Part shown: piece after piece, positions 2,946 to 37,704 of the stretch
Layout of the letters: each line of letters starts with the position of its first letter
Numbering within the stretch: position 1 is the first letter of the stretch
Notes under the pieces: generated by a model
Told to the model about the DNA's origin: nothing
What the model saw: only the letters and a program-made list of their open reading frames with translations
Database searches by the model: none
NCBI RefSeq assembly: GCF_025629245.1
Contig: NZ_JANZXN010000015.1
Span: 292,615-356,614 of the forward strand
DNA length: 64,000 bases
Source of the DNA: Natronobiforma cellulositropha
GTDB lineage: Archaea > Halobacteriota > Halobacteria > Halobacteriales > Natrialbaceae
Direction: 5' to 3'
Program-made: the position numbers and the translations under genes

Positions 2946-3016
2946 TCTTCTCGGTGCGCACCGCTGGCGGGGGTTCTTCGGCGTCTCCGATGGAGTCTCC
3001 TCCGTAGGCGCTGTCG

Positions 3017-3268
3017 TCACCCAGTCACGGAGAGCCACAGCGCGACGGCGACGAACACACTCGAGAGGACGAGTGCGCCAGCGATGCCAGCCCGCTTCTC
3101 GAGTGCGCCCTCGTCGTACTCGAGGAGGGCGATCAAAACGGTGGCGGCGAGCACGCCGCCGATCGTGGCGGCGCTCACGCCGCCGCCGCTCAGCACGTTC
3201 GTGGCGACGAGTGTGGTGACTGCGACACCGATTATCGTGAGCCGCTCGTTCAGGGTCGTCGTTGCCAT
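3017..3268 (-). CDS. Small membrane protein
   Basis: An 83-residue protein starting at ATG 3268 ([10 protein letters not shown]). Three hydrophobic stretches (about residues 10-28, 33-48 and 60-80) suggest a three-helix membrane protein with a short polar YDEGALEKR loop. The upstream extension of the frame is not convincing. It is transcribed divergently from truD. No family recognised. Confidence 0.6.
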
Positions 3269-3375
3269 CGTGGGTTGGTCTGGGTTCGACCGCCCGGAGC
3301 TTAAGCCCACCAGACACAGCACGCACACACGAAACCCGAGGAGTCTTTTGGCCGTCGGACCCGAGAGGGAGACGA

Positions 3376-4716
3376 ATGCGCCCGGCACACCCACTCGAGC
3401 AGGCCGTCGGCATCGAACACTACGTCAGCGACACCGACGGCGTCGGCGGCCGCCTGCGCGCGAGCGACGCCGACTTTCGCGTCCGCGAACTCGAGCGCTT
3501 CTCGACCGAGTCGCTCGAGGCGACGACGGACGCCTACCCCCACCTCGTCGTGCGGGCGACGCTCTCGGGCTGGGACACCAACGACTTCGTCTCCCGGCTC
3601 TCCGACGCGCTGGGGATGAGCCGCAGACGCGTCTCCTGGGCTGGTACCAAGGACAAACGGGCGATCACCACCCAGCTGTTTTCGATCTACGGTGCGGAAC
3701 CCGCCGACCTCCCCGAGATCCGCGGCGTCGACCTCGAGATCGTCGGCCGAGCGGGGCGCGCACTCGAGTTCGGCGACCTCGCGGGCAACGCCTTCGAACT
3801 GGCCGTGAGCGACGCCGACCGCCCCGAGAACGCCCCGGCGATCACCGACGAGTTGCGCGCCTTCGCGGACGCCGACGGCGACCAGATCGGCGTCCCCAAC
3901 TTCTTCGGCCAGCAGCGCTTCGGGAGCAGGCGCCCGATCACCCACGAGGTCGGACTCGAGATCGTCCGTGGCGACTGGGAGGGCGCGGTGATGGCCTACC
4001 TCGGCGGGCCGACGGCGAGCGAACCCGAGGAGACCCAGGCCGCCCGGGCGTTCGTCGAGGAGACGCGCGACTGGCAGGCGGCGCTCGAGCGCTTCCCCCG
4101 GGGACTCGGCTACGAGCGCTCGCTGCTCCACGGCCTGGCTGAGAGCGGCGAGGGCAGCGCCCCCACCCAGGAGACGTTCCGTGCGGCGCTCGAGCGTCTC
4201 CCCGACAACCTCCAGAAGCTGTTCGTCCACGCCGCCCAGTCCTACGCGTTCAACCTGATCCTCGGCGAGCGCCTCGAGCGCGGCCTGCCCTTCGACCGGC
4301 CGGTCGAGGGTGACGTGGTCTGTTTCGCGGATCGACAGGCACCCGAGGGGCTGGCGCTGCCGGACGTCGGACGCGAGCAACGCGTCTCCGAACGCCGCCT
4401 GCGCTCTGTCACCCGTCACTGTGAGCGCGGCCGGGCGTTCGTCACCGCCCCGCTGGTCGGCACCGAGACCGACGTCGCCGCGGGCGAACCCGGTGAGATC
4501 GAACGCGACGTCCTCGCGAGACTCGACCTCGAGCCGGGGGACTTCGACCTCCCGGACGACCATCACTCGAGCGGGACTCGACGGGCGATTCTCGTCACCA
4601 CGGAACTCGAGACCGAGGCCGACCCGCTCTCGCTCGCGTTCTCGCTGCCGAAGGGCTCGTACGCGACGGTCGTGATGCGGGAGTACCTGAAGGTGGATCC
4701 GATCGACCTCGGCTGA
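3376..4716 (+). CDS. truD: tRNA pseudouridine(13) synthase
   Basis: A 446-residue TruD. It isomerises U13 in tRNA to pseudouridine. The catalytic motif AGTKDKRA is at residues 89-96 with Asp93 as the nucleophile, and the conserved NFFGQQRFG is at 175-183. A long insertion follows (about 200-300), as is usual in archaeal TruD, then the C-terminal part with [20 protein letters not shown] 3376 was chosen because the 38 residues upstream in frame lack family similarity and the distance from upstream AT-rich DNA fits a leaderless start. Confidence 0.95.
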
Positions 4717-31212: not shown

Positions 31213-32673
31213 TCATCCCTTGATATTACAGACTGGAAACGTCCGCGCCACCCGGTGGCCGATGCCGAGTGCGTCCGAGACGCGGACCACCTCGTCGACG
31301 TCCTTGTAGACACCCGGCGCTTCTTCGGCGACGGTCGCTCCGGACTGGGCCTTCACGTAGATCGCCTGTCCCTCTCGCAGGTCGTCTCGCACGTCCTCGC
31401 CCCAGTAGTCGCGCTTGGCCTGCGTTCGACTCATCAGCCGACCCGCGCCGTGGGCGGTCGATCCGAAGGTGAGGTCCATCGACGCCGCACCGCCACAGAG
31501 GACGTAGCTGCCAGCGCCCATGCTCCCCGGGATGATCACTGGCTGGCCGACCTCGCGGTACGCCCGTGGAACCTCGGGGTGGCCCGCCGGGAACGCCCGC
31601 GTTGCACCCTTTCGGTGGACGTAGAGATCGCGTTGCTCGCCGTCGACCGTGTGGGTCTCCCGCTTGGCGATGTTGTGCGCCACGTCGTAGAGGAGGTCCA
31701 TCTCGAGGGTCTCCCACGAGCGCCCGAAGACGTCCGCGAACACCTCGCGCGTCCGGTGGGTGAGCAGCTGCCGGTTCACCCAGGCGAAGTTGATCGCGGC
31801 GTTCATCGCTCCGTAGTACTCGTCTGCGAGCCGGCTCCCCGCCGGTGCGGCGGCCAGTTCCTTGTCGGGCAGCCGTGCTAACAGCGACCCGTGTTCGCGT
31901 TCGATCTTCCGCAGGTAGTCGGTGCAGGTCTGGTGGCCGAGTCCGCGCGAACCGGTGTGGATCAGGATCACGATCTGGTCCGCCGAGAGACCGTAGGCCG
32001 CCCCGACGGTCTCGTCGAAGACGTCCGTCACCCGCTGGACCTCTAGGAAGTGGTTTCCCGATCCCAGCGAACCGATCTGGGTCGCCCCCCGTTCTTTCGC
32101 TCGCTGGGTGACCATCGAGGGATCCGCGCCCGCACGCATCCCCTCGTCCTCACAGTGGCGCAGGTCCGACGCGACCGCGTACCCGTGCTCGAGCGCCCAG
32201 TCGACACCACGGGCGAGGATCTCCTCGACCGTCCCGACGTCGGTCTCGACGACGCCACCGCCACCGAGTCCCGACGGAATCGCCTCGAAGAGCGCGTCGA
32301 CGAGTTCCTCCTCGCGGCCGCGAACGTCCGCGTAGGTCAGGTTCGTCGTCACCATCCGCACGCCGCAGTTGATGTCGTAGCCGACCGCGCCGGGCGAGAG
32401 ACAGCCCTCCTCGGCGTCCATCGCGCCGACGCCGCCGACCGGGAAGCCGTACCCCTGGTGGCCATCCGGCATACAGACCGCGTAGTTCGTGATCCCCGGT
32501 AGCTGCGTCGCGTTACGCAACTGCTCGAGCGTCTTGTCCTCGGCGATCTGTTCGAGAAGTGCCTCGCTCGCGAGCACGCGCGCTGGCACACCCATCTCAC
32601 CCTGTCGTGGAATCTCCCAGACGAACTCACGAATCCGCTCGAGCGTGAGACCGTCCGCGTCGAATGTGGCCAT
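31213..32673 (-). CDS. rtcB: RNA-splicing ligase RtcB
   Basis: A 486-residue RtcB that joins 2',3'-cyclic-phosphate and 5'-OH RNA ends during tRNA splicing and repair, using GTP and Mn2+. The metal-binding Cys is in GYDINCGVRM (about residues 97-106). The His ligands and catalytic region are in GSLGSGNHFLEVQ and HTGSRGLGHQ, and the C-terminal FGSTAHGAGRLMSR holds the conserved guanylation-site His (AHGAGR). It lies 78 nt after its cofactor gene archease on the same strand. Confidence 0.96.
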   Translation of the reverse strand: MATFDADGLTLERIREFVWEIPRQGEMGVPARVLASEALLEQIAEDKTLEQLRNATQLPGITNYAVCMPDGHQGYGFPVGGVGAMDAEEGCLSPGAVGYDINCGVRMVTTNLTYADVRGREEELVDALFEAIPSGLGGGGVVETDVGTVEEILARGVDWALEHGYAVASDLRHCEDEGMRAGADPSMVTQRAKERGATQIGSLGSGNHFLEVQRVTDVFDETVGAAYGLSADQIVILIHTGSRGLGHQTCTDYLRKIEREHGSLLARLPDKELAAAPAGSRLADEYYGAMNAAINFAWVNRQLLTHRTREVFADVFGRSWETLEMDLLYDVAHNIAKRETHTVDGEQRDLYVHRKGATRAFPAGHPEVPRAYREVGQPVIIPGSMGAGSYVLCGGAASMDLTFGSTAHGAGRLMSRTQAKRDYWGEDVRDDLREGQAIYVKAQSGATVAEEAPGVYKDVDEVVRVSDALGIGHRVARTFPVCNIKG

Positions 32674-32751: not shown

Positions 32752-33279
32752 TCAGACGTCGAAGACCACGTACGCTTCCCACCCCGACGCACGCTCCTCG
32801 AGTCGCATCTCCGAGTACGTGACCGCCTTCACCTCGCGTGCATCGACCGAGTCGAGCGGGACGCCGCGAGCGCTCCCCTCGAGCGTCCACGCGTCTTCGT
32901 CCGCGCCGCCGTCTACTCCATCCTCACTCGAGCCGCCGTCTACTCCATCCTCACTCGAGCCGCCGTCTACTCCATCCTCACTCGCGCTGCCGTCCACCCC
33001 ATCTCCCCGTCCTTCGGGGATGGTGATCGACACCTGTACGTCGATGGGAAACTCGAGGCGGACGTCGCGCTGGAAGAGCAGTTCGTCGAGGAAGTCGAAC
33101 AGCAACGCCTCCCTCGACTCGGCGCTCACCGCCAGCGGGAAGCGCTCGCCCTCGGCCGGAAACGCGTCACAGGAGGCTGCTGCCAGTCCATCGGCCAGCG
33201 AAGCGAAGACGTCCTCGAGCGTCTCCCCGGTCGCGAAGACGGCCACGTCGGCGGTGTGTGCCCGCAGTTCGAAGCCCAT
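32752..33279 (-). CDS. Archease with internal repeat insertion
   Basis: A 175-residue archease, the activator that speeds RtcB guanylation and turnover. The start MGFELRAHTADVAVFATG and the end TYSEMRLEERASGWEAYVVFDV are typical, including Asp/His metal ligands. A normal archease is about 140 residues. The extra length is a tandem nonapeptide (SSEDGVDGG) inserted between two strands at about residues 90-125, encoded by 27-bp DNA repeats. ATG 33279 begins the conserved core. It is in an operon with rtcB. Confidence 0.9.
   Translation of the reverse strand: MGFELRAHTADVAVFATGETLEDVFASLADGLAAASCDAFPAEGERFPLAVSAESREALLFDFLDELLFQRDVRLEFPIDVQVSITIPEGRGDGVDGSASEDGVDGGSSEDGVDGGSSEDGVDGGADEDAWTLEGSARGVPLDSVDAREVKAVTYSEMRLEERASGWEAYVVFDV
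32905..33012 (-). repeat. 27-bp tandem repeat inside archease
   Basis: Three near-identical 27-bp copies (32905-32931, 32932-32958, 32959-32985, the last with one mismatch) followed by a degenerate fourth copy (32986-33012). The unit begins GCCGCCGTCTACTCCATCCT and encodes nine residues, so copy-number changes keep the frame. Confidence 0.9.
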
Positions 33280-36846: not shown

Positions 36847-37704
36847 ATGACTACCAACGGTAATTCCGACCTCTCACGACGATCGATTCTCAGACGCAGT
36901 ACGACCGCCGCCGTCGGTCTCTCCGCACTCGCCGTCGCAACACCGGCGACGGCTCAGGACTGCGAGAGCCGCGCGCTCGGGACGGTGGCACTCGACGACC
37001 CGGACCTCCCGATTCGACGCACCGAATCGGAGTGCGTTCCGAGCGGCGTCCCGGGTACGTATACACTCGAGCGCGTCTCACTCTCCGGACCGAACGCCGA
37101 CGAGTTCAGACTCGAGGGTGTGCCCTCGTTGCCGGTGACGCTCGGCTCCGGCGAGTGCCTCGACGTACAGGTGGTCTTCGATCCGACGAGTCCCGGCGAG
37201 AAGGCCGCGGTCGTCACTGCCGAGGGTGAGTGTGTCTCCGAGGCGTTCGGTGCCTCGCAGCAACGATCGGAGTGTGTCCGGTATACGGCGACGGTAACGC
37301 CAGCGAGTGGGACCGACGAGTCACCGGAACCTCCTGCCGATCCACCAGAGTCACCGGAATCACCTACCGATCCACCGGAAGAGCCGCCGGAGTCATCCGA
37401 ATCTCCTACCGATCCACCAGAAGAGTCACCAACGTCGCCGGAGGAATCCGACGACGGGTCCACAGATCCGCCTGAACCGACACTGGAGGAGCCGTCGGTG
37501 GTCACACAGGAGTCTACCGAAACCACGTCGGAGGCGACCTCGGCGTCGTCTACGGACTCGTCAGACGACGTCGGAGACCACCTCGAGTCAGTACAACATC
37601 GCCTCTCCGACCGTCTGGGTGACTCCTCGAGCGAAGACGAAGACACAGAAACGGGCTACATCGACGACCGTCTCGGACAGGTGTTCAGTCGGCTGTTCGG
37701 CTGA
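36847..37704 (+). CDS. Tat-secreted protein with Pro/Glu/Ser repeats
   Basis: A 285-residue exported protein. The twin-arginine signal SRRSILR (10-16) and a hydrophobic stretch end at ATA-QD (36/37). A Cys-containing beta-rich domain follows (about 38-155; SGPNADEFRLEGV and ECLDVQVVFDPTSPGEKAA resemble abnormal-spindle-like/choice-of-anchor D folds). The C-terminal half is SPTDPPEE-type repeats and an acidic Ser-rich tail with no sortase-like anchor. The role is probably at the cell surface; the function is unknown. Confidence 0.75.
   Translation: MTTNGNSDLSRRSILRRSTTAAVGLSALAVATPATAQDCESRALGTVALDDPDLPIRRTESECVPSGVPGTYTLERVSLSGPNADEFRLEGVPSLPVTLGSGECLDVQVVFDPTSPGEKAAVVTAEGECVSEAFGASQQRSECVRYTATVTPASGTDESPEPPADPPESPESPTDPPEEPPESSESPTDPPEESPTSPEESDDGSTDPPEPTLEEPSVVTQESTETTSEATSASSTDSSDDVGDHLESVQHRLSDRLGDSSSEDEDTETGYIDDRLGQVFSRLFG

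Follow-up and report, generated by a model that had tools for sequence, protein, structure and literature searches.

Four tandem 27-bp units in a predicted disordered acidic loop of a haloarchaeal archease: a probable young in-frame minisatellite

The archease gene of the haloarchaeon Natronobiforma cellulositropha contains a minus-strand tandem array, in which four 27-bp units follow one another in register, at positions 32905–33012 of the window (the whole stretch of 64,000 nucleotides that was analyzed). This array is very likely a young in-frame minisatellite, which arose by local tandem duplication and is tolerated in a disordered acidic loop of an otherwise normal archease. The gene and its neighbor are located as follows:

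32752–33279, minus strand: archease gene, 175 aa (ATG at 33279–33277, stop codon at 32754–32752; PF01951, E 2.2e-28)
31213–32673, minus strand: rtcB, RNA ligase (PF01139, E 1.6e-162), the next gene downstream, after a gap of 78 bp

Archease is a small protein that assists in RNA repair and activates RtcB guanylylation. The PF01951 match of the archease scored 99.7 bits, against a curated cut-off of 25, and fell into two stretches, the better one at residues 25–97 of the 197-aa ORF that was searched. An AlphaFold model was computed from an alignment of the window protein with 93 relatives (94 sequences in all; mean pLDDT 87.4). With this model, the top Foldseek matches were the solved archeases 4n2p, 1jw3, 8odo and 8btx, and the match to 4n2p (E 1.7e-08, TM 0.79 by target length) identified an archease fold. 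A second archease copy was considered and rejected, as the protein search of the genome gave a single match. Two Pfam matches in G000 were taken to be the halves of this one archease gene, separated by the loop.

Among 138 parsed loci for which flanks were available (a count from two collections, with some genes counted twice), 111 had rtcB downstream of archease on the same strand. No other arrangement was seen in these loci, and in 27 of them rtcB was not found within the flank. The gap was at most 150 bp in 44 of the 111 loci, 150–600 bp in 12 and more than 600 bp in 55; the close spacing seen in the window is thus not universal. The spacing was also considered as a clue to the repeat, but it varies widely and tells little. 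At L058 (positions 3001–4146) the gap contains a 381-aa ORF, membrane-protein-like by eye, and at L065 a 180-aa ORF lies between the two genes.

According to the original prediction, the array consisted of three near-identical copies and a degenerate one, forming an in-frame expansion inside archease. The coordinates given for it were exact, and the reading frame of 175 aa is intact. The units, all on the minus strand, are:

32905–32931, minus strand: copy C, SSEDGVDGG, identical to copy B (27/27)
32932–32958, minus strand: copy B, SSEDGVDGG, identical to copy C (27/27)
32959–32985, minus strand: copy A, ASEDGVDGG, 26/27 against B and C (GCG for TCG)
32986–33012, minus strand: degenerate unit, GRGDGVDGS, 17–18/27 identical

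The degenerate unit matched at 21 of 27 positions once the register was moved by two codons. Along the protein, the peptide GRGDGVDGS is followed by three units of the form (A/S)SEDGVDGG with no interruption. Tandem Repeats Finder (TRF) reported the array at 32905–33003 with a period of 27, 3.7 copies, 94% match, no indels and a score of 170. None of the window's other rows (28 in total) scored above 97, and in 30 windows simulated with a first-order Markov model the maximum was 69. The array is therefore made of near-identical tandem DNA copies beyond chance expectation, with a period divisible by three. A further repeat in the window was found at 37318–37422 (30 bp, two copies, score 97); a 21-bp row that scores 58 overlaps it.

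Given the same peptide, the codon agreement would be expected by chance at about 2.9e-4 per pair of units, if the nine codons were chosen independently. The codons common to the copies include uncommon ones, i.e. AGT (9% of the use for its residue), GTA (9%), GGA (12%) and GAT (17%), and therefore the copies arose by DNA duplication. Third-position GC was 0.61 in the array versus 0.85 in the remaining archease gene. Most of this deficit is peculiar to the window's own array, since the 144 loops of the comparison set were only slightly lower than the core (0.82 versus 0.86). Together, the uncommon codons and the low third-position GC show DNA duplication with little codon polishing. The near-identity of the DNA had been read as a sign of recent tandem duplication, and the data bear this out, two copies being identical and one carrying a single change; judged solely by copy identity, the array appears to be recent.

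A function of the DNA unit as a regulatory site was rejected: its 21-base core had no copy elsewhere in the 3.76-Mb draft genome at three or fewer mismatches (three hits, all in the array). A gene on the opposite strand was also rejected. An ORF of 470 aa on the plus strand runs across the array, but it is the minus-strand archease that has homology and the rtcB neighbor; the stretch of the plus-strand ORF across the array was treated as probable overprinting in GC-rich DNA.

In the AlphaFold model the array lies within the following feature:

32890–33021, minus strand: hairpin loop, residues 87–130, between strands 76–86 and 131–141

Because the two strands bracket this loop, the array is predicted to occupy an expanded beta-hairpin turn that joins two core beta-strands. 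Block pLDDT values for residues 91–130 were 59, 47, 50 and 71, compared with 93–98 for the core blocks, and this part of the loop is predicted to be disordered. The 36 residues from residue 92 carry a net charge of −12, versus −18 for the remaining archease. Both the predicted disorder (pLDDT 47–71) and this charge over 36 residues are those of a haloarchaeal acidic low-complexity region.

For Pyrococcus horikoshii archease, the available part of one study names H9, D12, K117, D141 and the C-terminal I142 as the residues needed for RtcB activation (PMC3973293). For human archease, the available part of another gives D51 and K156, identified by mutation, and the metal ligands D178 and I179 (PMC10944509). 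In the alignments, the equivalents in the window archease (H8, D11, K151, D174 and the C-terminal V175) were all intact, and the metal- and phosphate-binding residues D11, K151, D174 and V175 are thus present. Strand 131–141 reaches K151 at the tip within ten residues, and therefore the start of this strand, together with the loop, would be expected at the end that faces away from the RtcB-binding tip. The window archease resembles the PF01951 archeases of P. horikoshii (4n2p) and human (8btx/8odo) in the whole fold, in the metal/phosphate residues of the tip and in the neighboring rtcB. It differs from the P. horikoshii protein, in which the turn is tight (a few residues), by an acidic insertion of about 40 residues that is predicted to be disordered.

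Archease loops were compared across haloarchaea in 229 parsed loci, corresponding to 179 distinct proteins; parsing failed for two of 231 loci, L087 and L124, which lie on contigs of equal length (112655) and probably represent a single record. The named loci were the best 80 of 244, and the class loci were the best 30, by Pfam score, of 259 genomes matched. For the family Natrialbaceae, to which Natrinema also belongs and which covers 29 genera in the collection, 125 genomes were searched, of which 121 had an archease match and 120 were parsed. A second genome of the window's species or genus was not present among these 125, and variation in copy number between strains is plausible. Apart from the window's own gene (L001), none of the 229 parsed loci contained DGVDGG. 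The comparison of relatives' loops that had been proposed thus showed an array not common to relatives, and a shared ancestral repeat was rejected. Among the parsed loci the unit appears to be specific to this organism, but the kind of event does not.

Across the 179 proteins, the spacing over the loop turn ranged from 39 to 80 residues between anchors (commonest value 41, in 26 proteins), making this the most length-variable place in haloarchaeal archease. The HTAD-to-RD spacing was 63–64 in 162 of the 179 (maximum 84), and the distance from KA to the C-terminus was 25 in 142 (maximum 40). The window archease had the longest turn spacing (80), tied with L008, both among the 179 proteins and among the 120 parsed family genomes, so that some lineage-specific selection is possible. 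The HTAD motif and the activating Lys were found in 179/179 proteins, a result partly built in, as the parser required HTAD-like and KA-like motifs; the C-terminal Asp plus V, I or M was likewise found in 179/179. The loop was conserved neither in sequence nor in length, and 41 pairs with a core identity of at least 90% differed by 2 to 17 residues in loop length. Over 144 loops, acidic residues made up 31% of the loop versus 21% of the core, and longer loops were more negative (rho −0.71).

In a codon-shuffling test, tandem repetition was detected at p<0.01 in 18/179 loops, a proportion that, the sampling being biased, does not equal a population frequency, versus 1/179 core stretches of equal length; about 2/179 would be expected at this threshold from multiple testing. 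At p<0.05 the numbers were 26/179 loops and 5/179 core stretches. Thirteen rows were found at p<=0.001, with periods of 6, 9, 15, 18, 21, 27, 30, 33 and 42 bp. Those other than the window's own are:

Halorubrum vacuolatum (L062): 27 bp, unlike the window's unit in sequence
L012 (G014) and L009: 30 bp
Halorubrum sp. JWXQ-INN 858 (L034): 42 bp
L006, L011 and Natrialba chahannaoensis (L058): 6 bp
L038: 9 bp
L032: 15 bp
L075: 18 bp
L095: 21 bp
L105: 33 bp

The loops of L062, L034, L058 and L012 have tandem repeats in the same hairpin turn as the window archease, but their units differ from that of the window (periods of 27, 42, 6 and 30 bp), and none contains DGVDGG. The 13 rows require 13 changes on a loop-free tree. 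Thirteen independent origins should be taken as an upper estimate: this tree leaves half of its inner branches (88/176) unresolved, and the units of L011 and L058 are similar (both have 6-bp Asp-Ala units). These sequence comparisons show that expansion of the loop has recurred, with repeat units that differ from case to case.

Similar arrays were found elsewhere on the contig. In 464 kb (the window plus 400 kb of the same contig), there were 20 non-CRISPR arrays with a TRF score of at least 80 and a period of up to 120, the window's array included, and in 17 of these the period was divisible by three. Three arrays showed 43–69% acidic residues in the printed frame, which is that of the longest ORF and may be on the wrong strand (as it was for the window's own array). 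The window's array is not special within the genome. Several other repeats were observed on the same contig outside the window. Two CRISPR-like arrays (L235, 2924–7680, and L244, 1633–2723; TRF) have a 30-bp repeat in common and lie in opposite orientation about 174 kb apart. At L241 (16840–16967) a perfect 40-bp repeat is present in 3.2 copies, with no open frame through it and a period not divisible by three. An open frame at L249 (10708–11109) contains degenerate 30-bp arrays, which we take to resemble pentapeptide repeats.

According to the available part of a survey of haloarchaeal low-complexity regions, these are 34% acidic versus 15% in other archaea, they are more abundant in Natrialba magadii than in any other archaeon, and they are suggested to contribute to adaptation to salt (PMC6821194). 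The archease loop is likewise an Asp/Glu/Gly/Ser-rich stretch in a haloarchaeal protein, the likeness being one of composition and not of that paper's criteria. It differs from the regions described in the available part of the paper in that a clear tandem array exists at the DNA level, and the host protein and the position within it are known.

Most likely, the array was produced by several recent rounds of in-frame duplication, which started from a short acidic seed located in a permissive turn. Slippage during replication, which had been assumed originally, and unequal recombination are both candidates for the mutational step, a single sequence being compatible with either. Residues 87–130 would tolerate in-frame changes in length, as the loop is predicted to be surface-exposed and unstructured and apparently lies far from the tip, which binds metal and enters RtcB. 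Since the activating Lys and the C-terminal Asp both lie beyond the loop, retention of the frame is to be expected. Selection seems to act on the composition of the loop (acidic, small and polar residues, which suit high internal salt) and not on its sequence or exact length, and the loop would be nearly neutral toward RtcB activation. Its role, if any, is probably that of a generic acidic, hydrated and flexible surface, tolerated or mildly favored in high salt.

The original prediction also held that repeat number may tune the binding of archease to RtcB; the acidic loop would dock into, or compete for, a positively charged groove of RtcB, with copy number setting the strength. Contact between human archease and RTCB through charge complementarity, together with the binding of archease by RTCB segments 45–64 and 436–444, for which the partner sites are not named in the available part of the study (PMC10944509), would fit such a mechanism. 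The large share of the protein's negative charge that lies in the loop, and its increase with loop length, would fit as well. The available part of the same study, however, places the interface at the conserved tip and reports conformational changes at hairpin 46–51 and region 159–162 of human archease, with no mention there of the loop turn (PMC10944509). From the order of the strands, the turn should sit at the other end of the strand leading to the tip. In P. horikoshii, as in many haloarchaea, there is no more than a tight turn at this place. With a loop that is predicted to be disordered and is unconserved in sequence and length, and with the residues of the tip intact, the tuning claim found no support, and we regard it as very unlikely. 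A further proposal is also very unlikely: haloarchaea would maintain the hairpin loop, a hotspot of mutation, as an acidic tail that is generated by repeats and evolves fast, and changes in its length would adapt archease–RtcB or RNA–RtcB electrostatics to internal salt.

The loop and its repeats could instead have been selected as a halophilic bristle for solubility and hydration, in which length and charge matter and sequence does not. The acidic enrichment of the loops and the correlation between length and charge are in line with this, as is the link to salt adaptation of haloarchaeal acidic low-complexity regions in the available part of the survey (PMC6821194). On the other hand, many haloarchaeal species have a minimal turn (26/179 proteins at the commonest spacing, 41), loop length differs among close species, and an acidic composition may merely mirror what is tolerated; selection of this kind is possible but rather doubtful. 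The draft state of the genome (60 contigs) might suggest that the copy number is wrong through an assembly artefact. This is extremely improbable, as the array is only about 100 bp, the copies are not all identical, the frame is kept, and the 12 other rows at p<=0.001, eight of them from named records, have repeats in the same loop. An array of about 100 bp is shorter than common short reads.

The preferred interpretation, a tolerated young minisatellite, makes the archease array look ordinary and not like a new regulatory device, acidic low-complexity regions being an already published haloarchaeal trait in the available part of the survey (PMC6821194). It illustrates neatly how haloarchaeal proteins can enlarge their acidic low-complexity loops: DNA is duplicated locally and in frame within a structurally permissive turn, repeatedly and with units that differ, while the catalytic tip stays fixed. 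The example is also a caution against taking such arrays for regulatory devices. If the loop were instead a repeat-generated acidic tail maintained at a mutational hotspot, it would give evolution a knob with which to tune tRNA splicing and RNA repair. Haloarchaeal archeases offer a natural series of loop lengths, 39–80 residues between anchors, which is ready for testing whether the loop matters.
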